Origin: an uncultured beta proteobacterium
Lineage (GTDB): Bacteria > Pseudomonadota > Gammaproteobacteria > Burkholderiales > Burkholderiaceae_C
Length of the DNA stretch: 64,000 bases
Direction: 5' to 3'
Assembly: GCA_903876735.1 (NCBI GenBank)
Contig: CAIRAW010000052.1
Location: 1 to 64,000 of the forward strand
A program made the translations under genes and the position numbers. Positions 1,948-21,525 of this stretch are shown piece after piece. Numbering within the stretch: position 1 is the first letter of the stretch; the number at the start of each line of letters is the position of its first letter. Under the pieces are notes generated by a model. The model was given only the letters and a program-made list of their open reading frames with translations. It did no database searches and was not told where the DNA came from.

Positions 1948-4900
1948 ATGGCCGTTTATAACTACTCCCCCTATGTCTTCAACATTTACGGCGACGACAC
2001 ACTGATATTTCCCTGGCGGGAAGTTTATGGGGACAGCGGTGTTCGTTTGAACAATCACTGGACAATCACCGCGCTGCCGAACTACCAGGTCAACCAGATC
2101 GCTTATGTCGATATGGGACTGGACACGCCCGTGGTCAGCAACCTCGCACGCGAACTGGATCACCTGACGCTGGCGGAGAACGGTACCTTTGTGCTCAACA
2201 TTAGCGGCGTTGAGTTCCTTGATGCGCCGCTCACAAAGACGGTGGACCTTGAGGTAGTGGGAAAACAAGGTTTCACGACCGATGGCTCGTTCAATTCGAT
2301 CAAGGTCAACGTCGGCAATCACAACATCTATTACACCGGCGCTACCCGGGATTCCACTCTGTTCATGGGGTCTGGCTGGGATGAGGTATTGCTAAAAGAC
2401 CACCCTGACATCCCGGGCGAGCAGTACTGGTCCCTGATCCGACGGGCAGACGGGCAGATGGACGCTTACAGCCTGTTTTCTGGCTACCGGATTCGCATGG
2501 AGGGTGGCGGCACCACCTGGAACAACAACAACGGCACCATTAACTATGGTGAGGTTGACATCATTTCGCTGCGCAATGCGCGCACTGGCACGATCGAGCA
2601 TCCGAGCCCTGGAAACTATATTCCGCTGGACGGCGACAAGTACCTCAACACCAATATCGATCTGCGCACTTGGGAAGGCGCCGTCAACACGCCTTTCAGT
2701 GATTCGTTCAACCTGGCTTACTTCAACTTCATCCGCTACACCTCGGACAACGTCTGGACCGGCGAGGCGACCGTTTACTCCAAATTGGTTGCTGGCAGCT
2801 ACAGCACGCCCGGCGACACCAAGGTGGCTGGCGCTACCTCACTTGATGTGGTGGGGACGAACCGCAACGGCACGCATGATTTGATCGTGGCGCAGCAGGT
2901 AACCCCCATCGTTGGCCAGTTCCGGCTTTATGCGTTCAATGTGGCATCGGGCGAGTACAACACGTTCAACGATGTGTACTTGGGTTCGGCTCTGAACAAT
3001 GTGGCAGATTACTCTGGCAATACCCTGGCGCTCAGACCGACCTATACGCTGGCCGAGTTGCGTGTGGCACTTTATGGGTTTGATGGCAATGACGTCTTGG
3101 ATGGCGGTCAAAGCAGTGACTATATTTTTGGTGGTCAAAGCAGCTATAACCAGTTAGTGGTTGGCGCGATTGGTAATCAGGTAACTGGCGCTGCGGGGGC
3201 CGACTACTTTGGCGTGGGGGATACCAATTCTGCTGGCGCGATTATTCACGCCAGCACCTCATTCGACTACGGTAGCACTGCCTTGGGCACGGGTACGCTG
3301 GGCTATGCCACCGATGTGATCTATGACTGGGATGCCGGGACAGTCACTACCGGCGTAGACACCCTGCGCGTCCTCAGCAACGGCGTGGCGGTGATCGCGG
3401 GTTTGTACGGGTCAGCTGACATGACTGGTGGAGACACCATCGACTTGCGTGACAAGACGGCGACTGCTGTGTCGGACCAGAACCTCTCTGGTGCGCGTGG
3501 CAATGCCGTGTCGGACGTCATCGCTACCAACACCCTGCAAGATGTTTACGACAATCAAAACAGCCGCGATGCGCAGAGCATCAGGAACGAGGCAGACGTC
3601 AGCGTTGTTAACGAAGGCCTGATCGTGGCCCGTGGTCAGGGCGGAAACGATGTGATCTATGACAGCCCCGGCAACGATTACCTGTACGGCAATGCCGGTA
3701 CCAATGTCACCAATATGGACCAGGGCGGCAACGACCGTGTCTTCTTTGACAGCCGGTCAGGCCGGCAGTACGTAGCAGGTTTCGCCCTTTCGTCAGATGC
3801 CTCCGCTACCAATCGTGACAAGGTCTATCTGGCCAAGAACGTGGTCGACGCATTCAGTGGTGGGGAGTCCAAGTCAACTGCTATCTATGACGCCACGGCG
3901 TCGTATTCCCTCACAACGGGACAAAAATACCAGCAGGGCCTGGATTATTTGTATGGCGTGACCTACAGAGCCTACCTCTCCAATGCCTATGGCGCGCAGC
4001 CGTATCACAACTGGCAAAGCGAAACGATGAGTTTTGCCGCCGACGTGACCACCTATGTATCAGGCATTGTCATGATCGGGGTGGGTATTGGCTTGTGCTA
4101 CATCCCGATCGTCGGCCCGGCCCTGGGCGCCCCGCTCATTGCAGCCGGTGCGCTGCTTGAAGCGGGGAAAATCTACTCAGCCGTGGAGAATTGGCAGGGT
4201 TCCAATCCGCATTTCAACCCGGTCTATGATTTGCCTGATGGCGCCAGTTTCGCGTCCAATTACGTGTATGTGCTGCATAACAATGTGCTGCCAAGCACGA
4301 CCCCGGCGAGCGGCGCGTCGGACTATGCCAATAGCGTCAACTTTCTTGACTTCTTTACGGGTACAAACCAGGGCGATGGCTTCACGCCGGTTCTGGAGTT
4401 GAACGCGTACGGTACTCCCAGCGACGGTAGTGCCATTACGGCTACCAAAGCTATCCATGCCTACTTTGCGGTGTGGTCAAGTTCGGAGACTTTTGTCTTT
4501 CTGATTAACTCAAGCGACAACCTGATTGAAAACAACGAGGCTACCAAAGTGGCCGAGGTCAACGGTCATCTGACGGCCTCTGATTTTGTGATCTACGATT
4601 CCAATACCGACCCGTATAACCAGACCGCCGATGTCGCTGTTACGCTCATTACGCCGACCATTACCGCCGTCAATCCTGGAACCGTGCCCAAAGGCGGCGT
4701 TACCAGCGCGGCAACGCTGACGGTATCGGGCACCGCGACCGGCGCTCCCAATGGCACGGTCATCAAGCTTTACGATGGCAACGACACGGAAACCGTAGGC
4801 GACACGGTTGTTCCCAAACTGGTCGCCACCGGCACCGTGTTGAGCAATGCGTTCAGTCTCACCGATACCCGCACCCTGGGGCAGACCATTGTCCAGACGG

Positions 4901-7110
4901 ACATCGATAGTTTTCTCTACCTGGATAACGCTGGCACCACCCGAACCAATGTGGCGACCGGGACCACCTACGCGAACCCGTACAAAGGATTGCCGAGCGA
5001 TCTCAAGTGGGACAACACCTTTGAATACCAGGACACAAAGGTGATCTACTACGCAACCCTGTCGAACGTGGTTGACAGCGGCATGACGCTTGACACCCGA
5101 TCAGGCACCTGGGCCGTGGTCGACAACGGGCCCAGTAATGCCACTATTGATGGGGGGGCCGGTACCGACACGCTGCAACTGGAATCCACGTCTGCGCACC
5201 TGAACCATGCATCCGATGCGCAAATCGTCAGCATCGAAGTCATCAACGTCAAGCCGCCCATGGGGCCGGGTTTGTCATTAACTGTTGCTTCTGGCGCTGT
5301 AACTGGAATCAGTATTCTGGATGCAGGAGCCAATGTTGCTGATGGCACTTACACCCTGACTTTCGCCGACGAAGTCAGTACGAATGAAACCGGTGCAGCG
5401 GGTCAAGTGGTTATATCCGGTGGCAAGGCGGTCTCGGCTACGGTATCTGCTGGGGGCAGCGGGTATACATCCGACGCCTACGCCACCGCAAGCTGGAGTG
5501 CAGTGGGCGTTCTCATCGATCTGCACCAGCAAACCGAGACCGGGGGGTTTAAGGTAATCGGCAACACCGGCAATGACACCATCATTGGTGGGCTAGGCGC
5601 TGACAACATCATGGGTGGTGCTGGCAACGACGTCTTGTCTGGCACTAGCGGCGCTGATACTTTCTCTGGCGGCGCCGGTGCGGATACGATCACTGCAGGC
5701 TCTGGCGCGGACACCATTTACCTGCTGGGTACGGAAAACACCACGGGTGCATCGACCGGCTATGACACGGTCGATAGCTTTGTCAGCGGCTCTGATCACA
5801 TCGACTACGACGCCAGTGTCACTGTCCCTAGCCCCAATCCGACTTACACCCAGACTGTCAACGAGTTTGCCAATCGCGACAGCAACAGCAGTCGCCTGAT
5901 GTATGAAACAGCGACATCGGGCGCGAACAAGGCGCTTTCGTCCGGAACTGAACTCCTTTTTGTCAGCAACTCGTCCGTTGCTGCAGGTGGCAGTCTGACA
6001 ACTGATATTGCGAACGCGATTGGCAGTGCCTACAACCTGACTAACCTGGCTGATGGCTCAGTCTTGTTTGCCGTTCATGACAGCGTGAGCGGCTACTGGT
6101 TTGGCACTTACACCGATGTCGCAGCAGATGACGTCGCTCTCGCCAGCGAGATTACCGTTCTGGCCCATGTCAACTCAACACTGGATGCCAACAGTTTCTG
6201 GTTGTCAGCAACACAGGCGCCGCAGGCGGTTTCAATTGCGCTGAATTCTGATACCGGTTACAGCAGTGGTGACCTGGTGACAAAAGATACGCAGATCAAT
6301 GTTGGTGGCATGGTGGGCGGCGGCGGCATCAGCTATTCGCTTAATAGCGGATCGAGTTGGACAACGACGTCGAATAGTTACTTCAACCTCGCCTCGAATG
6401 GCACTTATGCAGCCGGCCAGATTCAGGTGCGTCAATATGATGCCAATGGAAACTACAGTGCAAGCAACAACACAAACCTTGCAACGCTGAACGGCTCGAC
6501 CATTGTTACGGATAACACTGCGCCAACGGCCAGCTTGGCGCTGAGTAATTACACTTTTGGAAGCAATGGAGTTATTTACTCCACCACGAGTGGCGACGGC
6601 GCGACCACGTCGATTTATCTCACCGCTGGTGTGACTTACACGATTTTCGCCGGAGTTGGAACAATGGTTGATCCGATGCTTGACCTGACGGGCGGGGGCA
6701 TTACTCCGATCCACGACGACGATTCGGGCGGTGCTTTGGCTGCCCAGATTATCTTTACACCGGTCACGTCAGCCACTTATTACATTGTGACCACTCATTG
6801 GAGTACTTCAGCAACAGGAAACTGCGCTTTGTCCGTGTCTGGAATGACGAGTGCCGGATCTGCGACATTGACGGCTACCTTCAGCGAACCGGTCTACTAC
6901 CTTGACGCGTCTGACTTTGTGACGCCAAACGGCTCGCTCGGGGCGATGAGCACTTCTGACAACGTGACTTGGACCGGCACATTCACAACGCCTTCCGGTT
7001 TGAGCGATGCCTCTAACAACATTACGGTGAGCGGGTCGAATAATATCGAGGATCTTGCTGGTGTCGCTTTGGTTGGGTTGGCATCCACACCAAACTACAC
7101 CGTTGGTTAA
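1948..7110 (+). CDS. Large RTX-like type I secreted protein
   Basis: 1720 aa with no N-terminal signal peptide, as usual for type I secretion substrates. Seen in order: a unique N-terminal region (about 1-370); scattered glycine/aspartate turns such as DGNDVLDGG and GGNDVIYDSPGNDYLYG (370-600); a hydrophobic stretch at about 703-737 containing MIGVGIGLCYIPIVGPALGA; an Ig-like region near 910-960; a compact block of RTX nonapeptides with GGAGNDVLSG at about 1206-1262, expected to bind calcium; then Ig-like modules to the C-terminus, the last resembling domains with TATFSEPV. It starts at ATG 1948, 77 bp after the previous repeat protein, so the two probably form a unit. A surface adhesin or toxin-like exoprotein are both possible; the hydrophobic segment is unusual for a plain adhesin. 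Confidence 0.8.
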   Translation: MAVYNYSPYVFNIYGDDTLIFPWREVYGDSGVRLNNHWTITALPNYQVNQIAYVDMGLDTPVVSNLARELDHLTLAENGTFVLNISGVEFLDAPLTKTVDLEVVGKQGFTTDGSFNSIKVNVGNHNIYYTGATRDSTLFMGSGWDEVLLKDHPDIPGEQYWSLIRRADGQMDAYSLFSGYRIRMEGGGTTWNNNNGTINYGEVDIISLRNARTGTIEHPSPGNYIPLDGDKYLNTNIDLRTWEGAVNTPFSDSFNLAYFNFIRYTSDNVWTGEATVYSKLVAGSYSTPGDTKVAGATSLDVVGTNRNGTHDLIVAQQVTPIVGQFRLYAFNVASGEYNTFNDVYLGSALNNVADYSGNTLALRPTYTLAELRVALYGFDGNDVLDGGQSSDYIFGGQSSYNQLVVGAIGNQVTGAAGADYFGVGDTNSAGAIIHASTSFDYGSTALGTGTLGYATDVIYDWDAGTVTTGVDTLRVLSNGVAVIAGLYGSADMTGGDTIDLRDKTATAVSDQNLSGARGNAVSDVIATNTLQDVYDNQNSRDAQSIRNEADVSVVNEGLIVARGQGGNDVIYDSPGNDYLYGNAGTNVTNMDQGGNDRVFFDSRSGRQYVAGFALSSDASATNRDKVYLAKNVVDAFSGGESKSTAIYDATASYSLTTGQKYQQGLDYLYGVTYRAYLSNAYGAQPYHNWQSETMSFAADVTTYVSGIVMIGVGIGLCYIPIVGPALGAPLIAAGALLEAGKIYSAVENWQGSNPHFNPVYDLPDGASFASNYVYVLHNNVLPSTTPASGASDYANSVNFLDFFTGTNQGDGFTPVLELNAYGTPSDGSAITATKAIHAYFAVWSSSETFVFLINSSDNLIENNEATKVAEVNGHLTASDFVIYDSNTDPYNQTADVAVTLITPTITAVNPGTVPKGGVTSAATLTVSGTATGAPNGTVIKLYDGNDTETVGDTVVPKLVATGTVLSNAFSLTDTRTLGQTIVQTDIDSFLYLDNAGTTRTNVATGTTYANPYKGLPSDLKWDNTFEYQDTKVIYYATLSNVVDSGMTLDTRSGTWAVVDNGPSNATIDGGAGTDTLQLESTSAHLNHASDAQIVSIEVINVKPPMGPGLSLTVASGAVTGISILDAGANVADGTYTLTFADEVSTNETGAAGQVVISGGKAVSATVSAGGSGYTSDAYATASWSAVGVLIDLHQQTETGGFKVIGNTGNDTIIGGLGADNIMGGAGNDVLSGTSGADTFSGGAGADTITAGSGADTIYLLGTENTTGASTGYDTVDSFVSGSDHIDYDASVTVPSPNPTYTQTVNEFANRDSNSSRLMYETATSGANKALSSGTELLFVSNSSVAAGGSLTTDIANAIGSAYNLTNLADGSVLFAVHDSVSGYWFGTYTDVAADDVALASEITVLAHVNSTLDANSFWLSATQAPQAVSIALNSDTGYSSGDLVTKDTQINVGGMVGGGGISYSLNSGSSWTTTSNSYFNLASNGTYAAGQIQVRQYDANGNYSASNNTNLATLNGSTIVTDNTAPTASLALSNYTFGSNGVIYSTTSGDGATTSIYLTAGVTYTIFAGVGTMVDPMLDLTGGGITPIHDDDSGGALAAQIIFTPVTSATYYIVTTHWSTSATGNCALSVSGMTSAGSATLTATFSEPVYYLDASDFVTPNGSLGAMSTSDNVTWTGTFTTPSGLSDASNNITVSGSNNIEDLAGVALVGLASTPNYTVG

Positions 7111-10790: not shown

Positions 10791-11201
10791 TCAGTTCTGC
10801 GGGAGCGTCCAGTTTTCAACTTGCAGGCCCGGCACCCTGGCGAATTCAGCGGTGTTATTGGTCACCACGATGAGACCTTCGCTGCGCGCATGGGCGGCAA
10901 TATGCAGGTCGTTAACGCCAATGGGTTGGCCGCTTCTTTCGAGCGCGGCGCGAATTGCACCATAGTGCTGAGAAACCTTTGCGCCGTACGGCAGTACTTC
11001 GAGCCGACTGCAAAAATCCTCAATTGCCAGCAGGTTTTGACTGATCTTTGTACTTTTTTCTGCGCCGTGGAACAGTTCCGACAGTGTGATGGCAGAAACA
11101 GCCATGCGACTGGCGTTCTGGTTGAAAACGTCCAACACTTCCAGCGGACGCCTCTTCATCACGTAAATGACAATGTTGGTGTCGAGCAGGTATTTCAGCA
11201 T
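10791..11201 (-). CDS. vapC: VapC-type PIN-domain ribonuclease toxin
   Basis: 136 aa. The start ATG at 11201 overlaps the antitoxin stop (TAATG), the usual translational coupling; a longer frame to 11294 is inside vapB and rejected. PIN-domain acidic residues are visible: the D of LLDTNIVIYVMK at the N-terminus, E of TLSELFHGAE, D of GVNDLHIAAHA, and the VTNNTAEFARVPGLQVENW end. Family members cleave tRNA (initiator tRNA in enteric VapC) when freed from VapB. All expected acidic residues are present, so it looks functional. The module is probably acquired. Confidence 0.92.
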   Translation of the reverse strand: MLKYLLDTNIVIYVMKRRPLEVLDVFNQNASRMAVSAITLSELFHGAEKSTKISQNLLAIEDFCSRLEVLPYGAKVSQHYGAIRAALERSGQPIGVNDLHIAAHARSEGLIVVTNNTAEFARVPGLQVENWTLPQN

Positions 11202-11434
11202 TAGAGTGCTTCTCTCTCTGCTTGGCTCTGGGATGCACGCTCCGGCATAAAGTCGTCGCTCACAACGGGACCATCCAGAAAGAAACTGTCCCATGTCTGG
11301 CCAAGCGGGGCAATGATTCGCTCATTGCCTTTTGCCCGAACATCAACTTTGCGCGTGCCTTCCGGCAGGCGCAATTCAACCGGCAGTCTGACGGCCTGAG
11401 TGCGGTTGTTGGTAAAAACGGAACTGATTGCCAT
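11201..11434 (-). CDS. vapB: VapB-type antitoxin (AbrB/SpoVT fold)
   Basis: 77 aa. The N-terminus MAISSVFTNNRTQAVRLP followed by basic and hydrophobic residues is the swapped-hairpin AbrB/MazE DNA-binding domain of VapB antitoxins; the acidic C-terminal tail (WDSFFLDGPVVSDDFMPER) is the part that wraps the toxin. It precedes vapC with a one-base overlap. A GGAAGG ribosome site stands just before the ATG. Family members repress their own promoter together with VapC. Confidence 0.92.
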   Translation of the reverse strand: MAISSVFTNNRTQAVRLPVELRLPEGTRKVDVRAKGNERIIAPLGQTWDSFFLDGPVVSDDFMPERASQSQAEREAL

Positions 11435-11520: not shown

Positions 11521-12519
11521 TTAATTGGGCGGGAGCAGTCCCTTGATCGCGCCCATGGCGTCCAGGCTGAGCCGGTTGCCGTACTGGCTCACCACCTGCG
11601 CCGCAGCCTGATTGGCCAGCCAGGCCGCTTGCGCGTGGCTGTGGCCGTGCGTGGCCGCGTACATGAAGACTCCGGCAAACATGTCGCCTGCGCCGTTGGT
11701 GTCAAGCGCCTTGACGCTGGCAGCGGGCACTGTGGTTTGCTGTGCGCCTTCGAGCACCACACAGCCCTGCGGCCCGCGCGTCAGGCAGACCGTGCGCGCC
11801 AACTCGCTCATCCGGCGGCAGATCGTCTGCCAGTCCTTTGAGCCGCACCAGACCTGGGCCTCCTCCTCGTTGCAGAAAAGGTAGTCCAGGCCCTGGCCGA
11901 CGATGGCATCCAGACCCGGGCGGCAAAAATTGATCATGCTGACATCGCTCAGGGTGGTGGCCAGTTGCACACCCGCGTCGCGCGCGATCTGGCGCCCCTG
12001 CAGCGCGGCCTGCAAACCCGTGGGCGAGGCCGCCAGATAGCCCTCCATGTAATAGATTCTGGACTTGACGATGTCTTTCTCGTGCAGTGCGCTGTGATCC
12101 AGTTCGGCTGTGGCACCCAGAAAGGTGCTCATGCTGCGCTCGGCGTCGGGCGTCACCATCACCATGCAACTGCCGGTCTGGCCTGGCGCGGGTTTGGTGT
12201 GGGTGAGGTTGGTGGCCACGCCATTGGCGATCAGGTCTTGCGTGTAAAAGGCGCCCAGTTCGTCATCGGCCACGCGGCAGGAGTAAAACGCCTTGCCGCC
12301 GAGTTGGGCCAGTGCCACCACGGTGTTGCCGGCCGAGCCGCCACCGGTGCGCCGCACATGGACCGCGTCCAGATGGCCGAGCAGTTCGGTACGCCGCGCG
12401 GCATCGATCAGGGTCATGTGGCGCTTGTCCACACCCATGGTGGCGAGGTGGTCGTCAGAGACTTCGTATTCGGAGTCGACCAGGGCGTTGCCGATGGCGT
12501 AGAGGTCGTAAGTGTTCAT
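11521..12519 (-). CDS. PfkB-family adenosine kinase
   Basis: 332 aa ribokinase-fold sugar kinase. Visible: the N-terminal YAIGNALVDSEYEV strand, the substrate-site motif RRTGGGSAGNTVVALAQLGG, and the catalytic signature DTNGAGDMFAGVF with the general-base Asp near residue 280. This pattern belongs to the adenosine kinase branch of PfkB, which phosphorylates adenosine to AMP with ATP. The ATG overlaps the TolC-family stop by four bases (ATGA), so it is the last gene of the secretion operon. A fragment of its 3' end is repeated beyond vapBC. Confidence 0.88.
   Translation of the reverse strand: MNTYDLYAIGNALVDSEYEVSDDHLATMGVDKRHMTLIDAARRTELLGHLDAVHVRRTGGGSAGNTVVALAQLGGKAFYSCRVADDELGAFYTQDLIANGVATNLTHTKPAPGQTGSCMVMVTPDAERSMSTFLGATAELDHSALHEKDIVKSRIYYMEGYLAASPTGLQAALQGRQIARDAGVQLATTLSDVSMINFCRPGLDAIVGQGLDYLFCNEEEAQVWCGSKDWQTICRRMSELARTVCLTRGPQGCVVLEGAQQTTVPAASVKALDTNGAGDMFAGVFMYAATHGHSHAQAAWLANQAAAQVVSQYGNRLSLDAMGAIKGLLPPN
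11528..11601. repeat. Direct repeat copy 2: native 3' end of the adenosine kinase gene
   Basis: Partner of 10592-10665, offset 936 bp, same orientation. Here the sequence is part of the intact gene, so this copy is the source. The segment bounded by the two copies holds vapBC plus about 125 bp (10666-10790) in which I recognise nothing. Confidence 0.85.
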
Positions 12520-13856
12520 GGCATCAGCACCTGGTTGATGCTGGCAACTGCGTCGGTGTCGGCGCCGCCGACCAGCGCCAGCAAGCGGATTCTGGAGATC
12601 AGGTACATGAAGCGGGCCTGCGCCAGGTCACGCAGCGTCACCATGCGTTGCTGCTCGGCGTTCATGACGTCAACCAGGGTGCGGCTGCCGGCCTGCAGCG
12701 ATTTCCGGTTGGACAGTACCAGTTGGTCGGCTGATCGCAGTGCCTGCTCCAGTGCGCGGATTTTTGCCATGTTCTCGGTTACGCCGCGAAACTCCTTGTG
12801 CACATTGACGGCCAGGTCGCGCCGGGCGCCTTCCAGCAATTGCTCGGCGCGTTCGAGCCCGGCCAGCGCCTGGCGCACCGTGGAGTTGACATAGCCGCCA
12901 GAGTAGATTGGAACATTGAGTTGCAGACCAACGGCCTTGTTGGTATAGCTTGATTGCACGTTGAGCACGTTTTCGCTTTGGCTGCGCGACCACTGCACCA
13001 CCGCATCGAGCGTGGGTGCGTGGCCGGATTGTGCCTTGTCCACTTCGAGGCGGGCAGCCTGCACTTGTGCTTTTGTCGACTGCAGATGACGGTTGTTTAG
13101 TTCGACGCGCTCGATCCAGTCCTCGACTTGATTGGGTTGCAGCTCTGAAAGCGTGAATTTGGCAAGGTCGATTTTGGCCAGGCCGTTGATGGGCTGGTTG
13201 ATCAGCGTCTGCAATTGGCGCAGGGTGTAGTCGATGCTCTGGCGCGCCTCGATCTCGCTGGCCACGTTCATGTCGAGCCGTGCCTGGGCCTCGTCAACAT
13301 CGGTACGGGTGCCAGAGCCGCCGGCCAGTGCCTTGCTTGCGGCAGCCAGTTGGGTGCTGTAAGCCGCACGCTGCGCCAGCACCAAAGCCAGTTGCTCATG
13401 TGTCAGCATGGCCTCGAAGTAGGCGCCGCAGACGCGCACCGCCAGGTCCTGCTCGTCCTGCGCGAGCGCGGCTTCGGCGTCATCAACCTGGGCTTGGGCT
13501 TGCCGGAACTGTGCCATCTGGTAGGTGCGAAACAGGGGCTGGCGTAGGGATAGCGTTCGGTTGCTGCTGGGGTAACTGGTGTCGCTGCTTTGGATCTGTC
13601 CGAGCGAGTTGGGCACGCCGCTGGCCAACTGGTTGCGGTTTTGCCCCATGCTGGCACTCAGACTCGGCAATAGCTGCGAGCGTGCCTGCGGCAGGCGTTC
13701 GCGCCCGGCGTCGGCGGCGGCGCGTGAGGCCCGAATGGTGGCGTCGTTGATTTTCGCCGCCTCGTAGGCCTGCAGCAGGTCCATTGACCAGCCGGCCGTG
13801 GAGCCCGACAGCAGGGCGAGCGTGAGCAGGGTAGGTTTGAAGAGACTGCGCATCAT
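12516..13856 (-). CDS. TolC-family outer-membrane channel of the type I secretion system
   Basis: 446 aa with signal peptide MMRSLFKPTLLTLALLSGSTAGWS. The mature protein shows the two-fold repeated outer membrane efflux architecture: DLLQAYEAAKINDATIRASR at the start, a long helical coiled coil with ARVCGAYFEAMLTHEQLALV, a beta strand, and the second half with VGLQLNVPIYSGGYVNSTVRQALAG, then TLVDVMNAEQQ. It forms the trimeric tunnel across the outer membrane that docks on the HlyD adaptor. It starts four bases after the adaptor stop, so the pair is surely co-transcribed. Confidence 0.93.
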   Translation of the reverse strand: MMRSLFKPTLLTLALLSGSTAGWSMDLLQAYEAAKINDATIRASRAAADAGRERLPQARSQLLPSLSASMGQNRNQLASGVPNSLGQIQSSDTSYPSSNRTLSLRQPLFRTYQMAQFRQAQAQVDDAEAALAQDEQDLAVRVCGAYFEAMLTHEQLALVLAQRAAYSTQLAAASKALAGGSGTRTDVDEAQARLDMNVASEIEARQSIDYTLRQLQTLINQPINGLAKIDLAKFTLSELQPNQVEDWIERVELNNRHLQSTKAQVQAARLEVDKAQSGHAPTLDAVVQWSRSQSENVLNVQSSYTNKAVGLQLNVPIYSGGYVNSTVRQALAGLERAEQLLEGARRDLAVNVHKEFRGVTENMAKIRALEQALRSADQLVLSNRKSLQAGSRTLVDVMNAEQQRMVTLRDLAQARFMYLISRIRLLALVGGADTDAVASINQVLMP

Positions 13857-13860
13857 GTGC

Positions 13861-15228
13861 TCACTCCTCTTTCATGGACGCGGCCAGGCGCCGGGTCAGC
13901 GGGTGCAGCAGATAGGTCAGCATCGAGCGCTCGCCGGTCAGGAAGATCACCTCCACCGGCATGCCCGGCTGCATCTGGCGTTTGCCCAGTTTCTTCAGGC
14001 CTTCGGGCGTTACGGCCACGCGCGCAAGGTAGTAGCCGGCGCCGTTGCGGTTGTCGACCAGCAGGTCGCCGGAGACCGATGCCACCTTGCCTTCGACCAC
14101 CAATTGCGGTGAGTTGGCAAACGAGGAAAAGCGCACGTCCACCGGCAGATTGGCATGCACGCGGTCGATCAGGTGCGGGCTGATGCGTGCTTCAAGCATC
14201 AGGGCCTGGCCGGCCGGCACGATGTCCATCAGTTTTTGTCCGGGGCCGATCACGCCGCCCACGGTCTGGAACGCCAGACCCACCACCTGTCCGTCGGCCG
14301 GCGACTTGATGTCGATACGGGCCAGGTCGTCCCAGACGGCCTGGTATTTCTGGGCATCGACTTCGACTTCACGCCCGACCTCGGCCAGTTGCGACTCGAC
14401 GTCCTTGCGGTACTCCTGCTGGCGCGCGATGGCGCGCTGGCGCATCTCGCTGATGGCGCGCTGGGCGCGTGTGCTGTTGCCCGTCAGTTCGGCGATGGAT
14501 GCATTGGACTCGGCCAGCATGCGCTCAAGTTCCAACTGGCGGTTGCGTGGCGCGTAGCCTTCCTTCACCAGTTCGCTGGTGTTCTTGTGCTCCTCGCTGA
14601 GCAGCGCAAGTTGGTTGCGCCGGTTGCCCAGCATGGCGCTGTAGGCTTGCAGCAGTGCTTGCTGGCCCTGGACGCTTTCCTCGATCGCCTGCAGGTCTGC
14701 CTGCAGACTGCTGCGGCGTGACAGGTAGAGTTGTTCCTGCGTCAGCGCCACGCGCGCAATCTGCGGGTCGTCCAGCGCTTCGCGCACGTCCTGGTGCCAG
14801 GTGATTTTGGCCAGACCCTGTTGCTCGGCCAGCAGGCGCCCTTCCATGGCGCGCAGGCCCAGGTAGCGTTGCCGCGCCGCCTCAAAATTGGCGCGCGTGG
14901 CGCCGTCATCGAGCTTGAGCAGCAACTGCCCTTCCTTGACGATCTGCCCTTCCTTGACCAGCACCTCCTTGACGATGCCGCCCGACAGGTGCTGCACCGC
15001 CTTGCTCTTGGTGTCGATGGTGACCGTGCCCTGGCCCGGCACGCCTTCGTCCAGCGGCGCCAGGGCAGCCCACAGCAGGAAGCCGCCCAGCCCCAGGCCG
15101 AGCGCCCACAGGCCGATGCGGCCGGGGTTCACCTTGGGTTCGGGCTTGGCGATCACGTCGGTGATGCTGGCCAGCGTCTGCGCTGTCGTGTCGGATTGGG
15201 GAGCGTTGAAATTTTTGGGTTGGGCCAT
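13861..15228 (-). CDS. HlyD-family periplasmic adaptor of the type I secretion system
   Basis: 455 aa membrane-fusion protein. A cytoplasmic tail of about 40 residues precedes one membrane helix (IGLWALGLGLGGFLLWAALA). Then come the lipoyl half-motif GTVTIDTKSKAVQHLSGGIV, long coiled coils (residues about 110-290), the second lipoyl half DIKSPADGQVVGLAFQTVGG, and the C-terminal beta barrel ending in GMPVEVIFLTGERSMLTYLLHP, the characteristic PrtE/HlyD end. It bridges the ABC exporter and the outer-membrane channel. Thirty bases separate it from the second ABC gene upstream. Confidence 0.95.
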   Translation of the reverse strand: MAQPKNFNAPQSDTTAQTLASITDVIAKPEPKVNPGRIGLWALGLGLGGFLLWAALAPLDEGVPGQGTVTIDTKSKAVQHLSGGIVKEVLVKEGQIVKEGQLLLKLDDGATRANFEAARQRYLGLRAMEGRLLAEQQGLAKITWHQDVREALDDPQIARVALTQEQLYLSRRSSLQADLQAIEESVQGQQALLQAYSAMLGNRRNQLALLSEEHKNTSELVKEGYAPRNRQLELERMLAESNASIAELTGNSTRAQRAISEMRQRAIARQQEYRKDVESQLAEVGREVEVDAQKYQAVWDDLARIDIKSPADGQVVGLAFQTVGGVIGPGQKLMDIVPAGQALMLEARISPHLIDRVHANLPVDVRFSSFANSPQLVVEGKVASVSGDLLVDNRNGAGYYLARVAVTPEGLKKLGKRQMQPGMPVEVIFLTGERSMLTYLLHPLTRRLAASMKEE

Positions 15229-15258: not shown

Positions 15259-16992
15259 CTAGGCGGGAACGGCCACGGCACTTGCCGGGCCCGGGTTGGC
15301 GGGTTTGGCGGCCGCCTGCAGGGCTGCCAGCACGGCGTCGCGCGGTCCTTCGGCCTGGACGCGGCCGTCGATCAGCAGCAGCACGCGGTCGGCCACGGCC
15401 AGAACGCCGGGGCGGTGCGTGATCAGCACCACGGTCTTGCCCTTGGCTTTCATGGTCTGCACCGTCTTGACCAGCGCGGCTTCACCGGCTTCGTCCAGGT
15501 TGGCGTTGGGTTCGTCCAGCACGATCAGCGCCGGGTTGCCATAAATGGCGCGGGCCAGGCCGATGCGCTGGCGTTGGCCGCCTGAGAGCAGGGCGCCGGC
15601 TTCGCCGATCGGCGTGTCGTAACCTTTGGGAAAACGCAGGATCATGTCGTGCAGACCGGCGCAGCGCGCCGCCTCGATTACCTGCGCTGAGTCGACCTTG
15701 CCGAAGCGCGCGATGTTCTCGGCCAGCGTGCCCTCGAACAATTCGATGTCCTGCGGCAGGTAGCCCAGATGCGGGCCGAGTTCGCCGCGGTCCCAGCTCG
15801 ACAGCGGCAGGCCGTCGAGCAGGACGTTGCCCGACACATCAGGCCAGATGCCCATGATGACCCGTGCCAGCGTCGATTTGCCGGAACCCGACGGCCCCAG
15901 TACCACCAGCACGGTGCCGCTGGCCAGCGTCAGGCTGACGTTCTTGAGGATGGGTGTGCTGCGTCCCGACGCGCTGGCCACCACGTCACGCACCTCGAGC
16001 TGGCCCTGCGGCGCCACGCGTGACAGCGCGGCGTCGCGCGGCGGAAAGCCGAGCAGCAGTTTTTCCAGCCGGCCAAAGGCGGCCGCCGCACCGATGAAGC
16101 CGCGCCAGCCGCTGACGATCTGGTCGATCGGGCCCAGGGCGCGGTTCATCAGCACGTTGGCGGCGATCATGCCGCCGGGCGAGAGCTGGCCGTCGATCAC
16201 CAGCAGCGCGCCAGCGCCCAGCGCGAGCGACTGCTGGCTGTAGCGGATGAACTTGCTCCAGGCCACCACGCGCTGCGTCAGCGCCTGTGCCGCCGTGCCC
16301 TGTACCAGCGCGTCGGCATGGCGTTTGGCCCAGCGCTGGCGCAGGTTGTCGAGCATGCCCATGGACTCGATCACCTCGGAGTTGCGCAGCTTGCTTTGCA
16401 GAAAACTGCCGGCTTCCGAGTTGGCGGCCACGGCGGCCTCGGACGGCGCCAGTGTGTGGCGGTGCCCGACCCAGGCCAGCAGCACCTGGATCGCCGCGAA
16501 GAACAACCCCAGCACGCCAAGCCAGGGGTGCAGCATGAACAGCACGGCCATGTAGATCGGCGCCCAGGGCGCGTCGAAGAAGGCAAAAATGCCGTTGCCG
16601 GTGAGGAACTGGCGCACCTGCAGCAGGTCGCCAAAAGAGCGCGCCGGCGAACTGCCGGTCTGGCTCAGGTGCGACTCAAAACTGGCATTGAAGACCTGTG
16701 TGCCCAGGCGCTCGTCCAGGCGCACGCCGGCGCGCACCAGCACGCGCGAGCGCAGCCACTCGGCAAAGGCCATGACGCCGAACAGCGCCAGCGCCAGCAG
16801 CGACATCGCCAGCAGTGTGAGCTCGCTCTGGCTGGCGATGACGCGGTCATAGACCTGCAGCATGTACAGGGTGGGCGTGAGCATCAGCACATTGGCCAGC
16901 ATGCTGAACAGGCCGACCATCAGAAACTCGTTGCGAAAGGTCCACAGCGTGGCTGTGAGTTCGCTGCGCTTGAAAAATTCAGGTGTTTTCAT
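15259..16992 (-). CDS. Type I secretion ABC exporter (PrtD-like), second of two
   Basis: 577 aa half-transporter: six membrane helices in residues about 20-300, then a nucleotide-binding domain with Walker A GPSGSGKST, signature LLSGGQRQRIGLARA, Walker B LIVLDEPNANLDE and the H-loop VLITHRPG. All catalytic residues are intact. No N-terminal C39 peptidase or C39-like domain, so it is of the PrtD type that exports proteins with uncleaved C-terminal signals. It follows its paralogue by 14 bp. Two adjacent intact exporters suggest a heterodimer or two substrate classes; which is not decided by sequence. Confidence 0.94.
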   Translation of the reverse strand: MKTPEFFKRSELTATLWTFRNEFLMVGLFSMLANVLMLTPTLYMLQVYDRVIASQSELTLLAMSLLALALFGVMAFAEWLRSRVLVRAGVRLDERLGTQVFNASFESHLSQTGSSPARSFGDLLQVRQFLTGNGIFAFFDAPWAPIYMAVLFMLHPWLGVLGLFFAAIQVLLAWVGHRHTLAPSEAAVAANSEAGSFLQSKLRNSEVIESMGMLDNLRQRWAKRHADALVQGTAAQALTQRVVAWSKFIRYSQQSLALGAGALLVIDGQLSPGGMIAANVLMNRALGPIDQIVSGWRGFIGAAAAFGRLEKLLLGFPPRDAALSRVAPQGQLEVRDVVASASGRSTPILKNVSLTLASGTVLVVLGPSGSGKSTLARVIMGIWPDVSGNVLLDGLPLSSWDRGELGPHLGYLPQDIELFEGTLAENIARFGKVDSAQVIEAARCAGLHDMILRFPKGYDTPIGEAGALLSGGQRQRIGLARAIYGNPALIVLDEPNANLDEAGEAALVKTVQTMKAKGKTVVLITHRPGVLAVADRVLLLIDGRVQAEGPRDAVLAALQAAAKPANPGPASAVAVPA

Positions 16993-17006
16993 ATCGATTG
17001 CTTTGC

Positions 17007-18734
17007 TCAGGCGTGTGCTGCCGCAGCGGCGGGGTTTTGCGCTTGTGCGCTGGCCTTGGCGAGCGCCGCCAGCACTTCGTCTCTGGGGCCAAAGGCGCGG
17101 GTCTGGCCCTCTTGCAGTACCAGCATCTTGTCGGCCACCGCCAGCACGCTGGCGCGGTGCGTCATGATGACCAGGGTGGTGCCGCGTGCCTTGAGTTGCA
17201 GGATGGCGCTGGCCAGGGCCGCGTCGCCGGCTTCGTCGAGGCTGGAGTTGGGCTCATCGAGCACCACAAACATCGGGTCGCCGTAGAGCGCGCGGGCCAG
17301 GCCGACGCGCTGGCGCTGGCCGCCCGAGAGCATGGCGCCTTCGCGCCCGACCGGGCTGTCGTAGCCTTGCGGCAGGGCCAGTATGGTTTCGTGCAGGCCG
17401 ACGGCGCGGGCGGCGGCTTCGACCTTGTGCATTTCGACCGTGCCAAAGCGCGCAATGTTTTCCGCCAGCGTGCCGTCAAACAGCTCCACACCCTGCGGCA
17501 GATAGCCCAGGTGCGGACCGAGTTCGCTCTTGTCCCAGGTGAAGACGTCGACGCCGTCGAGCCGCACCTTGCCGCTGGCTGCCGGCCACAAACCCACCAG
17601 CAGGCGCGCCAGCGTGGTCTTGCCCGAAGCCGAAGGGCCAACCACGGCCAGCACCTCGCCGGCGTTCAGGGCAAAAGCAACGCCGCGCAGGATCGGCAAC
17701 TGCGAACCCGGCGCAGCGGCGACCAGGGCTTCGACGGTGAGGCTGCCGTGCGGGACTGGCAAGGCCATGGTCGGTGCGCGCACCGGCAGGGCGCTTAGCA
17801 ACTGGTCCAGGCGCGACCAAGCGTCGCGCACGTTCACCACGCCTTGCCACTGCGTCACGATCTGAACCAGCGGCGCCAGCACGCGCCCGCCAAGCACGGA
17901 GGCGATGATCATCATGGCCGAGCCGCCATTGAGTTCGTTGCGCAGCAGCAGCCAGGCACCCAGGCCCAGCAGCATGGAACTGGTCACGTTCTGCAGGAAC
18001 TTGGAGGCAGCCTGAAAGGCGCCGCCGGCGTCCGATGCCGTGGCCTGCAGGTTCAGGAACTCGCGCTGCTTTTCCATCCAGCGGCGGTGAATGTCGCGCA
18101 GCATGCCCATGGATTCGATCACCTGCGCATTGCGCAGCGAACCGTCGGCGTACTGCTGCGCGGCGATGGCGCTGCGGTTGGCTGCCAACAGCGGTGGCTG
18201 CGTGCTGCGCTGGTTGAGCCAGGCAATGAAGGTTTGCAGGATGGCAGCTACCACGGCCGACCAGCCCAGCATCGGGCTCATGGCGAAAATCAGCACCAGA
18301 AACACCAGCGACACGGGGGCTTCCATGCAGGCGATCAGCACCGGGTTGTTGAGAAATTCGCGCACGGTGCGGAAATCGTTCATCGGCTGCGTAGTGCCGC
18401 CGGCCACACGCTTGCGGTTGGCTTCGAAGATGGCGTTGAAGATGCGCTTGCTCAGACTCTGGTCAAGCGCCAGCGAGGCCTGGTGCATCAACTGGCCACG
18501 GGCCCAGTCCAGCACCTCCATCACGACAAACATCACCAGCACCAGCAGCGTCAGCATGGCCAGCGTCATGTGGCTGCGGCTGTTGACGACGCGGTCATAG
18601 ACCTCAAGCATGTAGGCCGACGGCATCAGCACCAGCAGACTGGCCACCAGACTGAGCCAGGCGGCGTTCACAAAATAGGGTTTGAGTTCGCCCATTGCCT
18701 GGCGCAGCTCCGAGGTGTTTTTTGCGGGATTCAT
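17007..18734 (-). CDS. Type I secretion ABC exporter (PrtD-like), first of two
   Basis: 575 aa half-transporter with a short N-terminal tail, transmembrane domain (residues about 20-300, beginning VNAAWLSLVASLLVLMPSAY) and nucleotide-binding domain: Walker A GPSASGKTT, signature MLSGGQRQRVGLARA, Walker B FVVLDEPNSSLDE, H-loop VIMTHRAS. It is clearly paralogous to the next gene but not nearly identical, so the duplication is old. Its ATG overlaps the stop of the TnpB-like gene by four bases (ATGA), meaning translation of the two is likely coupled. Confidence 0.94.
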   Translation of the reverse strand: MNPAKNTSELRQAMGELKPYFVNAAWLSLVASLLVLMPSAYMLEVYDRVVNSRSHMTLAMLTLLVLVMFVVMEVLDWARGQLMHQASLALDQSLSKRIFNAIFEANRKRVAGGTTQPMNDFRTVREFLNNPVLIACMEAPVSLVFLVLIFAMSPMLGWSAVVAAILQTFIAWLNQRSTQPPLLAANRSAIAAQQYADGSLRNAQVIESMGMLRDIHRRWMEKQREFLNLQATASDAGGAFQAASKFLQNVTSSMLLGLGAWLLLRNELNGGSAMMIIASVLGGRVLAPLVQIVTQWQGVVNVRDAWSRLDQLLSALPVRAPTMALPVPHGSLTVEALVAAAPGSQLPILRGVAFALNAGEVLAVVGPSASGKTTLARLLVGLWPAASGKVRLDGVDVFTWDKSELGPHLGYLPQGVELFDGTLAENIARFGTVEMHKVEAAARAVGLHETILALPQGYDSPVGREGAMLSGGQRQRVGLARALYGDPMFVVLDEPNSSLDEAGDAALASAILQLKARGTTLVIMTHRASVLAVADKMLVLQEGQTRAFGPRDEVLAALAKASAQAQNPAAAAAHA

Positions 18735-19408
18735 GCGGCCTCCTCGACCATCAGATATTCGGGTAAAGCCAGAGGCGCTTGCGCTCCGGCAACAGCTTGA
18801 TTCAGGCTCAGTTCCTGCGGCCCGGTCTGCGTCAGCGCCAGTTCGGGCCCATCGTCCTGTGACACGCTGGCGTCTGCCGGCGCGTTATCGACAAAACTGA
18901 AGCGCAGTTCAAAGGAGCCGTCCACGCGCCGCGAGAGCACGATCTCCTGCAGCTTGAGGTCGTGAAACATGGCCTCCTGCTCGGGCTGTAGGGCCAGCTC
19001 GAAGCGCATGCGGCCGTCCAGCGTGTACATCGAGAGCTGGCGCTCCTTCACACTCAGGGTGTGGCGGTCAAAGTAGACCGGGCAGTTGTCGCTGAAGCGC
19101 AGCAGCGGCAGCGGCCGTTCGCCCAAACGCGTCAGGTTGAAAGGGCTGCCCGGGCTTTGAAAAACCAGGCGACTGGTGCGCGAGACGGAATAAATGGCGT
19201 TGCACACCATCTGCGAGCCCAGCGCCGGAAACTGGGTGCGCAAGGACTTGTAAACCATGTGGTGCAGGGCGACCCGGTTCCAGCAGCGCGTTTGCTGAAC
19301 AATCGGGCTCAGGGCATTGCAGACCTGCGCAAACGCAGATTGCAGGGCCTGGAGCCGCGCCTGTTGCTCTGGCGTCGCGGTCAGGGGAATGCTGATCACA
19401 AAGTTCAT
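18731..19408 (-). CDS. TnpB N-terminal-half-like protein without nuclease domain, first gene of secretion operon
   Basis: 225 aa. Residues 1-80 (ATPEQQARLQALQSAFAQVC, then LHHMVYKSLRTQFPALGSQM and a VSRTSRL helix) follow the opening of IS605-type TnpB proteins. Residues about 105-170 (PVYFDRHTLSVKERQLSMYT, LDGRMRFELALQPEQEAMF, then ELRFSFV) follow the TnpB wedge-domain strands that come just before RuvC. The RuvC and zinc-finger parts are absent: after RFSFV there are about 55 low-complexity Ala/Gln/Leu/Glu residues and a stop. It heads the secretion operon, overlaps the first ABC gene by four bases, and its start codon lies in a perfect 18-bp dyad. A regulator or RNA-binding protein derived from a transposon is the simplest idea. 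Family assignment comes from motif memory only. Confidence 0.7.
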   Translation of the reverse strand: MNFVISIPLTATPEQQARLQALQSAFAQVCNALSPIVQQTRCWNRVALHHMVYKSLRTQFPALGSQMVCNAIYSVSRTSRLVFQSPGSPFNLTRLGERPLPLLRFSDNCPVYFDRHTLSVKERQLSMYTLDGRMRFELALQPEQEAMFHDLKLQEIVLSRRVDGSFELRFSFVDNAPADASVSQDDGPELALTQTGPQELSLNQAVAGAQAPLALPEYLMVEEAA

Positions 19409-19445
19409 ATAGGAAGCGAGTGTAACAGCTTCCTATATGAACTTT
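19400..19445. promoter_or_regulatory. Perfect 18-bp inverted repeat spanning start codon and -10 region of the TnpB-like gene
   Basis: Arms AAAGTTCATATAGGAAGC (19400-19417) and GCTTCCTATATGAACTTT (19428-19445) with a 10-base spacer. The left arm contains the minus-strand ATG at 19408. A possible minus-strand promoter, TTGATC (19459-19454) and TATAGG (19437-19432) with 16-bp spacing, puts the -10 in the right arm and the transcript start in the spacer. That arrangement fits an operator better than an mRNA hairpin. No good ribosome site precedes the gene. Confidence 0.75.
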
Positions 19446-19523
19446 TTGTCCAAGATCAAGCTTCTGCAATGTCGGCCTTGACCCCACGCTTGAGCCTTCA
19501 GGATTAGTGTTTAAGATAGCCCC

Positions 19524-20195
19524 ATGCCCCAATCCCTGCAGCACCTGCTCGACAACAACCGCGTCTGGGCGGCCCGCATGGAGCGCGAGCGCCCTGGCTT
19601 CTTCAGCCTGCTGGCGCAGCAGCAGACCCCCAAATACCTCTGGATTGGCTGCTCCGACAGCCGCGTGCCGGCCAACGAGATCACCGGGCTTGATCCGGGC
19701 GAGGTCTTTGTGCACCGCAACGTGGCCAACGTGGTGGTGCACTCCGACCTCAACGCCCTGTCGGTGATCCAGTTTGCGGTGGACCACCTCAAGGTTGAGC
19801 ACATCATGGTGGTGGGCCATTACGGCTGCGGCGGCGTGCTGGCGGCTTTGCGCGGCACGCGCGTCGGCCTGGCCGACAACTGGCTGCGCCATGTGCACGA
19901 TGTCAAGCTGCGCCACCGCCGGCGCATCGAGCACCTGACGGCGCGCGAGCAGGAAGACGTGCTGTGCGAGATGAATGTGATCGAGCAGGTTGGCAACGTC
20001 GCCATGTCCAACGTGCTGCAGGACGCCTGGCGGCGCGGCCAGAAGGTTGCTGTGCACGGCTGGTGCTATGGCCTGAAGGACGGTCTGGTTCAGGACATGC
20101 AGGTCAGCATGCAGTCGCCGCAGGACGTGGTGGGCGTTTTCCGCAACGCGCTCAAGCGCTACCCTCGTGGGAGCGCCCTGCCTTCGACAGACTAG
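19524..20195 (+). CDS. can: Beta-class carbonic anhydrase
   Basis: 223 aa. The zinc ligands are in place: Cys43 and the Asp45/Arg47 dyad in CSDSRVPANE, and His99 and Cys102 in VVGHYGCGGV. Length matches E. coli Can. It interconverts CO2 and bicarbonate in the cytoplasm, supplying bicarbonate for carboxylations. ATG 19524 has no clear ribosome site; a TTGAGC/TAAGAT promoter-like pair ends only about eight bases before it, so leaderless translation is possible. It is divergent from the secretion operon. Confidence 0.96.
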   Translation: MPQSLQHLLDNNRVWAARMERERPGFFSLLAQQQTPKYLWIGCSDSRVPANEITGLDPGEVFVHRNVANVVVHSDLNALSVIQFAVDHLKVEHIMVVGHYGCGGVLAALRGTRVGLADNWLRHVHDVKLRHRRRIEHLTAREQEDVLCEMNVIEQVGNVAMSNVLQDAWRRGQKVAVHGWCYGLKDGLVQDMQVSMQSPQDVVGVFRNALKRYPRGSALPSTD

Positions 20196-20343
20196 AGGCG
20201 GCACGAGGCCTTCCGTGTACCCGCAACGTATTCATGAAACACCCTGCGACCGCGACAAGCGCCATGTCTCAAGCAGGACCAATGAAACCAGTTTTGCCGG
20301 ATAACGGCTATTTTTTCAAACCACTTCAAAGGAGAACCACACC

Positions 20344-21525
20344 ATGACCGATTCCATTGTTATTGTTGGTGCCGCCCGCACCCCGATGGGCAGCTTCCAG
20401 GGCGATTTTTCTGCGCTGGCCGCGCATGACCTCGGTGGTGCCGCCATCAAGGCCGCTGTGCAGCGCGCCGGCGTGAAGGGCGAGCAGGTTGACGAAGTGC
20501 TGTTTGGCAACTGCCTGATGGCCGGCCAAGGCCAGGCACCGGCACGCCAGGCCGCGTTCAAGGGCGGTCTGCCGATCAGCGCAGGCGCGGTGACCTTGTC
20601 CAAGATGTGCGGCTCCGGCATGCGCGCGGCCATGTTCGGCCACGACATGCTGCTGGCCGGCAGCGCCGATGTGGTGGTGGCCGGTGGCATGGAGAGCATG
20701 ACCAATGCGCCTTATCTGCTGCCCAAGGCGCGCGGTGGTTACCGCATCGGGCACGACCGCATTTTTGACCACATGATGCTCGACGGTCTGGAAGATGCCT
20801 ACGAGGCCGGGCGCTCGATGGGCACTTTCGGCGAGGACTGCGCCGCCAAGTACAGCTTCACGCGCGAGCAGCAGGACGCTTTTGCCATTGCCAGCGTGCA
20901 GCGCGCGCAGGCCGCTACCAAGTCGGGCGCCTTTGCGGCGGAGATCACGCCGGTGACGGTCAAGGGCCGCGCCGGTGACGTGGTGATTTCGGTGGACGAA
21001 GGTCCGGGCAAGGTCAAGCTCGACAAGATCCCGGCGCTCAAACCGGCTTTCAAGAAAGACGGCACCATCACCGCCGCCAGCAGCTCCAGCATCAATGACG
21101 GCGCCGCTGCCATGGTGCTGATGCGCGCCTCGACCGCCGCCAAGCTCGGCCTCAAGCCGCTGGCGCGCATCGTCAGCCACGCCGTGCACGCGCAGGAGCC
21201 GAACTGGTTTGCCACGGCGCCGGTCGGTGCCGTGAAGAAGGCGCTGGCCAAGGCCGGCTGGAGCGTCAAGGACGTTGACCTGTGGGAAGTCAACGAAGCC
21301 TTCGCCGTTGTGCCGATGGCCTTGATGAGCGACCTGGGCCTGAGCCACGACATCGTCAACGTCAATGGCGGCGCCTGCGCGCTGGGCCATCCGATTGGCG
21401 CCTCTGGTGCGCGCATCATGGTGACGCTGATGTACGCATTGCAGGCGCGCGGCCTGAAAAAAGGCGTTGCCACGCTGTGCATCGGTGGCGGCGAAGGAAC
21501 CGCTGTGGCGATTGAAATGCTTTGA
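20344..21525 (+). CDS. Acetyl-CoA C-acyltransferase (thiolase)
   Basis: 393 aa, the usual thiolase length. Catalytic residues are Cys89 in LSKMCGSGMRA, His349 in GGACALGHPIGASGAR and Cys379 in LCIGGGEGTA. It condenses two acetyl-CoA to acetoacetyl-CoA or cleaves 3-ketoacyl-CoA in fatty acid breakdown. A strong ribosome site (AAGGAG) precedes the ATG. It stands 152 bp before an acyl-CoA dehydrogenase, which favours a degradative or short-chain acyl-CoA role, although PHB synthesis cannot be excluded. Confidence 0.93.
   Translation: MTDSIVIVGAARTPMGSFQGDFSALAAHDLGGAAIKAAVQRAGVKGEQVDEVLFGNCLMAGQGQAPARQAAFKGGLPISAGAVTLSKMCGSGMRAAMFGHDMLLAGSADVVVAGGMESMTNAPYLLPKARGGYRIGHDRIFDHMMLDGLEDAYEAGRSMGTFGEDCAAKYSFTREQQDAFAIASVQRAQAATKSGAFAAEITPVTVKGRAGDVVISVDEGPGKVKLDKIPALKPAFKKDGTITAASSSSINDGAAAMVLMRASTAAKLGLKPLARIVSHAVHAQEPNWFATAPVGAVKKALAKAGWSVKDVDLWEVNEAFAVVPMALMSDLGLSHDIVNVNGGACALGHPIGASGARIMVTLMYALQARGLKKGVATLCIGGGEGTAVAIEML

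Follow-up and report, generated by a model that had tools for sequence, protein, structure and literature searches.

The TnpB-half protein (THP) gene lies at positions 18731–19408, minus strand, of the window, which is the whole 64,000-nucleotide stretch analysed (contig CAIRAW010000052.1 of an uncultured betaproteobacterium, Burkholderiaceae_C). Its open reading frame (ORF) is intact, with an ATG start, 225 codons and no internal stop, and it is the first gene of a type I secretion operon in the order THP-ABC1-ABC2-HlyD-TolC, all on the minus strand. ABC1 (17007–18734; TIGR01842, 645 bits) and ABC2 (15259–16992; TIGR01842, 681 bits) are type I secretion permease/ATPases of the PrtD type, followed by a HlyD-type periplasmic adaptor (13861–15228; TIGR01843) and a TolC-type outer membrane channel (12516–13856; TIGR01844). 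All four score above the type I secretion cut-offs curated by NCBIfam, and the gene set of a PrtD-type secretion operon (PrtD-type ABC, HlyD, and TolC) is complete, with the ABC gene doubled. THP and ABC1 share the four bases of an ATGA stop/start overlap (18731–18734, minus strand). The original prediction, an earlier reading of this DNA, had described an intact ORF overlapping the first ABC gene by four bases and heading a five-gene operon, and the start codon, junction and gene order bear it out.

Residues 13–155 of THP are 36% identical to a TnpB present in seven copies in genome G054 (E 2.7e-17), and the THP family profile matches a full TnpB in G083 (E 1.3e-37), the C-terminal part of which corresponds to Pfam OrfB_IS605 and Cas12f1-like_TNB. 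Searched singly, THP matches no Pfam or NCBIfam family over the cut-off, with sub-threshold noise at most, and gives noise below threshold or nothing against PDB sequences. The top structural matches of its structure model are Cas12f chains, and the stretch PVYFDRHTLSV...SMYT, quoted in the original prediction, falls among strands predicted within WED, a domain assigned by comparison. Residues 177–212 have a predicted local distance difference test score (pLDDT) below 50; the next gene starts immediately, and RuvC is not encoded. Proteins P0001, P0066, P0079 and P0107 have no OrfB_IS605 or TNB match, and three full TnpBs have both. Motifs of the RCWNRVALHH- and GSQMxC-type are common to THP and the nearest TnpBs, and many residues are invariant among 24 aligned THPs. 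The tree combined 28 TnpBs with 24 THPs taken from the 120 listed.

Judged by these sequence and fold comparisons, THP is the DNA-reading half of TnpB, comprising the REC and WED domains, with RuvC gone. The claim that the protein is an N-terminal half of TnpB without RuvC is thus upheld by the G054 and G083 matches and the Cas12f structural matches; the profile and structure comparisons found similarity to the REC-WED region of TnpB/Cas12f and nothing to refute it. Of the TnpB domains, the N-terminal REC+WED region is present and the RuvC catalytic and zinc/TNB domains are absent, and the catalytically mutated RuvC that defines TldR is missing altogether. Because RuvC, which defines both groups, is absent, no claim is made that THP belongs to TnpB or TldR; it may have a TldR-like function as a TnpB-derived regulator.

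Database proteins matching the THP family at E 1e-3 or better number 5039 of 5585 candidates, a set that may include TnpBs beyond its best 120 members; those best 120 are 196–252 aa long and have no precomputed Pfam domain. A collection with one genome per species yielded 252 pattern stretches, of which 237 encode a THP relative, and 80 loci kept from such stretches served for a neighbourhood survey. ABC1 is directly downstream of THP in 78 of the 80, the contigs of the other two (L032, L090) ending less than 75 bases from the gene. On contigs long enough to show them, ABC2, HlyD, and TolC follow ABC1 in that order, except in L041, which has no TolC match though its contig goes on; other short loci stop before TolC. 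The THP stop and ABC1 start take the ATGA form in 66/78 loci, and a Shine-Dalgarno-like stretch lies within the final 20 nt of the THP gene in 42/78. In the window, the conserved THP C-terminus VEEA (18734–18748, minus strand) is encoded by GTCGAGGAGGCC, and the same stretch is Shine-Dalgarno-like for ABC1.

In an order-level sample of 399 genomes, the short protein occurs in 10. The nine homologues besides that of the window come from seven families, are 52–68% identical, and adjoin an ABC1 homologue in every case. THP is single-copy in each of 15 genomes carrying the gene. Within the genus, 19 loci have an ABC1 of at least 66% identity, and 16 of them have the THP gene; of the three exceptions, two (L162, L175) lie at contig ends, and in L166 just an apparent 3' end of THP is left. 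Homologues adjoin PrtD-type ABC genes throughout the survey, apart from the two contig ends, and in the distant genomes as well, so the refuting outcome named in the original prediction, homologues never next to type I secretion genes, did not appear. This conserved operon context speaks against THP as part of a mobile element.

A perfect inverted repeat (19400–19445), which the original prediction did not mention, flanks the THP start codon. It was found by eye and by folding (an 18-bp stem), and consists of arms of 18 bp each (19400–19417 and 19428–19445) with a 10-bp spacer; an equal arm length was found by script in L023. The conserved unit among homologues is an 11-mer, TTCATATAGGA. One copy lies over the start codon (19404–19414, plus strand), reading TCCTATATGAA on the gene strand, and the other forms the upstream arm on the gene's own strand (19431–19441, minus). 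With at most one mismatch, the half-site is present in 75/75 promoters, versus 0.125 in mononucleotide shuffles; the promoter set is 75 of the 80 loci, the other five being without the anchor motif or enough upstream sequence. Facing pairs occur in 53/75 loci with spacers of 9–27 bp (15–17 in 39/53) and back-to-back pairs with a one-base spacer in 13/75, five loci having both, and the remaining 14/75 have lone or same-direction half-sites. Back-to-back half-sites one base apart (TCCTATATGaacTTCATATAGGA-like) are seen in L068, L074, L059, L079, and L101; L068 also has a facing pair, three half-sites in all. At outer positions 1 and 4, and likewise at inner positions 1 and 3, the arms are complementary past the core more often than arms that have been re-paired, but this signal is weak, takes no account of kinship, and was not used.

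The site is closely tied to the gene. In the genome of the window the exact 11-mer occurs twice, both times at the THP promoter. Exact copies are at the THP promoter in 16 of 18 cases in a set of 15 genomes and in 31 of 32 in 17 further THP-carrying genomes. The three strays are single and partnerless, and represent the background level, since a reversed-pattern control gives 1 match in the first set and 2 in the second. The exact site is absent from 5/6 THP-less genomes of the genus, four more distant type I secretion system (T1SS) loci of the genus (L177–L180) have neither THP nor site, and the exact paired pattern has no match in viral contigs. Among the nine order-level homologues, a half-site with at most one mismatch is near the gene in seven and is not found near it in G168 and G129. 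In these two the flanks have tolC upstream, so that an operon start at tolC was suspected; longer stretches give the order TolC-THP-ABC1-ABC2-HlyD in both. G129 has two exact tandem half-sites just before the tolC frame, and its 11.5 kb contain no further site even when two mismatches are allowed; the site thus stands at the head of a rearranged operon in which THP is not the first gene. On this distribution, TTCATATAGGA is predicted to be a dedicated THP operator, and such a dedicated site supports the claim that the protein serves the secretion operon.

A -10-like hexamer, TACACT after TGT (extended -10), was identified by eye 10 nt before the ATG (19419–19424, minus strand). A TAnnnT hexamer with at least 4/6 matches to TATAAT precedes the ATG in 73/75 loci (shuffles 28 mean, 42 max), at 6–12 nt in 72 loci and 21 nt in one. 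A Shine-Dalgarno-like motif precedes THP in 1/75 loci, and a leaderless or nearly leaderless THP mRNA is likely from these features. Exact forward sites start at -34 to -28 in 51/55 cases, with the -10-like hexamer between the arms, and exact reverse sites start at -6, over the start codon, in 57/71.

The insertion point of an IS200/IS605 element lies 3' of a short target, which in ISDra2 doubles as the transposon-associated motif (TAM) of its TnpB, according to the text consulted from PMC8612924. For the G054 element six left junctions, and for the G127 element three, read TTCAT followed by the element; on viral contigs three related single elements (L227, L229, L236) read TCAT, with TTCAT in L227. 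The total is TCAT in 12/12 junctions and TTCAT in 10/12, omitting L122, whose left end is cut, and inferences made from a single copy for G083, L221, L222, L224, and L230; the left end of the L219 Methylomarinovum element is unreadable. The half-site TTCATATAGGA opens with TTCAT, and thus likely begins with the recognition sequence of the ancestral nuclease. A search for the empty site of one G054 insertion in 10 genomes returned nothing beyond the two flanks in G054 and, in G463, one match that is short and weak.

Some related tnpB genes have the site too. Among 18 TnpB representatives, 16 are readable, since the anchor is missing in L233 and a start codon in the stretch searched for L121, and 7 of the 16 carry TCCTATATGAA, one mismatch allowed, over their own start codon; the start codons chosen for L139 and L141 may be wrong. 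Related tnpB genes (L221, L222, L223, L224, L227, L228, L229) start in TCCTATATGAA or its one-mismatch form, and most show an A/T-rich -10-like stretch just upstream, L222 being cut by the contig end. It is possible that the start-codon TCCTATATGAA is an autoregulatory site of tnpB itself, and because 7/16 representatives carry it, the operator may predate the RuvC loss. The exact motif combined with an MKRT pattern is unspecific: of the 18 viral stretches matching it, 4 are tnpB genes, each already identified by other means, 2 are other long ORFs and 12 contain no long ORF. A class-wide search of 369 genomes for G083-type TnpB at E 1e-60 found nothing, but had no positive control and shows nothing.

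The reading preferred here, given a probability of about 0.72, is that THP is a transcriptional autoregulator derived from the DNA-reading half of TnpB, and that it represses its own secretion operon. The ancestor would have been a TnpB recognising the (T)TCAT TAM. A betaproteobacterial lineage would have dropped the RuvC/zinc half and retained REC+WED in a type I secretion operon, mostly at its first position. The protein alone, free of guide RNA, would read TTCATATAGGA as double-stranded DNA, at half-sites usually paired on either side of the -10 element. Occupancy of both would block the -10 element and start point, repressing THP, two PrtD-type ABC genes, HlyD, and TolC, and repression would be lifted once THP is titrated or switched by a signal. 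The core of the original prediction is supported and acquires a specific mechanism, and the nucleic-acid target, earlier given as RNA or DNA, narrows to what appears to be DNA.

THP can be compared with several known systems. It shares with the RNA-guided nuclease TnpB of IS200/IS605 the REC+WED fold, the two motifs, the (T)TCAT at element left ends and, in part of the relatives, the start-codon TCCTATATGAA, but lacks RuvC and the zinc domain, has exporter genes downstream instead of a transposase, and is present in one copy in each of the 15 genomes mentioned above as carrying it. TldRs are TnpB-like nuclease-dead repressors with a mutated RuvC and a guide RNA that target other genes, as far as described in the part of PMC13418256 consulted. 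THP resembles them in its TnpB derivation, its link to non-transposon genes and its probable role as a transcriptional repressor, and differs in that RuvC is missing, a guide RNA is not evident, and its own operon bears a fixed 11-bp site. With the type V effectors (Cas12f, Cas12k, and Cas12m) the common point is that the top structural matches of the model are Cas12f chains, and the difference is that THP is a stand-alone half without RuvC. Classical operon autorepressors are first-gene regulators with an inverted-repeat operator and a helix-turn-helix. THP is likewise a first gene with paired half-sites around the -10, but it has a TnpB fold and half-sites in several orientations. Among the titles and abstract openings listed in searches of open-licence literature, none describes a RuvC-less TnpB regulator or places a TnpB gene within an operon for type I secretion.

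Other readings of the same features have to be weighed. THP could activate the operon through these sites, which is unlikely, though the most probable of the alternatives: a sigma-70 scan of the window found no -35/-10 pair and no -35-like partner, as in activator-dependent promoters, and because no full promoter was found activation keeps some probability. Proteins bound at such positions around the -10 and start usually block, however, and in the common layout the predicted start point is covered by one arm, which opens 6 nt ahead of the ATG, with the other just upstream of the -10. Repression is favoured because occupancy of both half-sites should block transcription. Rather less probable is that the operator belongs to another host regulator and that THP has an unrelated secretion task, e.g., binding the exporter or its substrate. 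Synteny by itself fits any exporter-operon task, and G440 retains a degenerate site without THP; against this stand the scarcity of the exact site in THP-less genomes of the genus, the L177–L180 loci without either, and the 11-mer at related tnpB start codons on viral contigs, which seems to travel with the protein family.

Slightly more doubtful again is that THP is still RNA-guided like TldR, with a guide encoded somewhere and the half-site made of a TAM and short seed. TnpB and TldR bind guide RNA, according to the portions consulted of PMC13418256 and PMC8612924, and TTCAT could serve as TAM and ATAGGA as seed. The RuvC part is gone, though, the frequent ATGA overlap leaves little downstream room for a guide, an Rfam search of positions 17000–20500 gave nothing at E 1 or below (guide RNAs of TnpB may be missing from Rfam), and a single 11-mer is conserved between genera and is found in either orientation as well as in tandem. 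A 5' leader hairpin to which THP binds, blocking translation, is improbable. The window repeat does fold into an 18-bp hairpin (z -3.4), AGGA lies within one arm, and the arm complementarity past the core, kinship ignored, points the same way, yet single, same-direction and tandem half-sites are unable to form a hairpin around the start codon, and since a -10-like hexamer is placed between the arms or immediately ahead of the ATG in 73/75 loci, transcripts should begin after it. The hairpin idea was set aside despite the strong fold, on account of these layouts. A decayed transposon remnant without function is practically negligible as an explanation: TnpB genes often decay, but relatives are encoded in 237 stretches, the best 120 matches keep a narrow length range, invariant residues are many, and position and operator are conserved, which already contradicts it.

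Several observations weigh against autorepression by THP, in addition to the missing -35 partner. The full-length protein has a net charge of -3, and the N-terminal half is less basic in 24 THPs than in TnpBs (mean +7.5 vs +11.25). The TAM-contact residues of ISDra2, given in a figure legend of PMC11844463, could not be transferred to THP, REC being unaligned and WED unsupported (hhalign probability 0.4%); a residue-level contact map was dropped for this reason and was not used for any claim. The 75 loci are related, so that their counts are not independent. G035 lacks the gene but has one exact site. G168 has only TTCATATATGC, with two mismatches, before tolC, and is weak support at best because two more two-mismatch sites occur within 14 kb. 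L174 (G440; ABC1 58%) keeps the exporter and an operator with one mismatch per arm and has lost THP, and L166 (G441) keeps the exporter with both THP and operator absent, so THP can be lost while the exporter stays. TTCAT is the complement of ATGAA and the start-codon arm is partly under coding constraint; the downstream arm proves little for this reason, the upstream arm and the pre-tolC sites being exempt. The empty-site search gave no proof that TTCAT is target and not element, and the start-codon site is absent from 9/16 readable TnpBs, including G083 (three mismatches), the three readable outgroup TnpBs, and L219, which has an annotated tnpA upstream. What the analysis shows is the homology, the fold, the missing RuvC, the synteny, the conserved and dedicated site, its position heading one rearranged operon and the -10-like hexamer ahead of the start codon; binding, repression as opposed to activation, guide-free action, the leaderless start and the signal are inferred from these.

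THP probably represents a novel type of gene switch. That it represents a new class of transcription factor, in which a half reading the TAM or protospacer adjacent motif (PAM) acts with no nuclease or guide on an 11-bp TAM-led site, and in which self-binding was inherited from tnpB, is slightly favoured. If true, the TAM/PAM-reading part of TnpB/Cas12 would be able to act alone as a sequence-specific DNA-binding protein, with a bearing on the origin of CRISPR effectors and on small DNA binders. A likely function and DNA site would be assigned to a family at hundreds of genome loci, perhaps thousands of proteins by database matches, mostly unnamed or "hypothetical", and TnpB domestication would be linked to protein secretion. 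The model also predicts that some tnpB genes are self-controlled via a TAM-containing site at the start codon.

The two genus loci without an intact THP are of separate interest. In L174 (about 3312–3348), THP is cut to its apparent first codons between the degenerate operator and ABC1, a natural regulator deletion. In L166, apparent last THP codons alone precede ABC1, and the operator was not found. A profile search of G440 and G441 gave no second THP copy.

The window has further features near the operon genes. A PfkB-type sugar/nucleoside kinase ORF (11521–12519, minus strand), with every match under curated cut-offs, shares 4 bp with TolC and may be the sixth gene of the operon. Two calcium-repeat/RTX-like proteins (20–1870 and 1948–7110, plus strand; weak matches, under cut-offs) lie near the exporter operon and are candidate secreted substrates of the exporter. 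ORF 10791–11294 (minus strand) resembles, by eye, a VapC/PIN-type toxin (LLDTNIVIYVMK) and is a candidate only.
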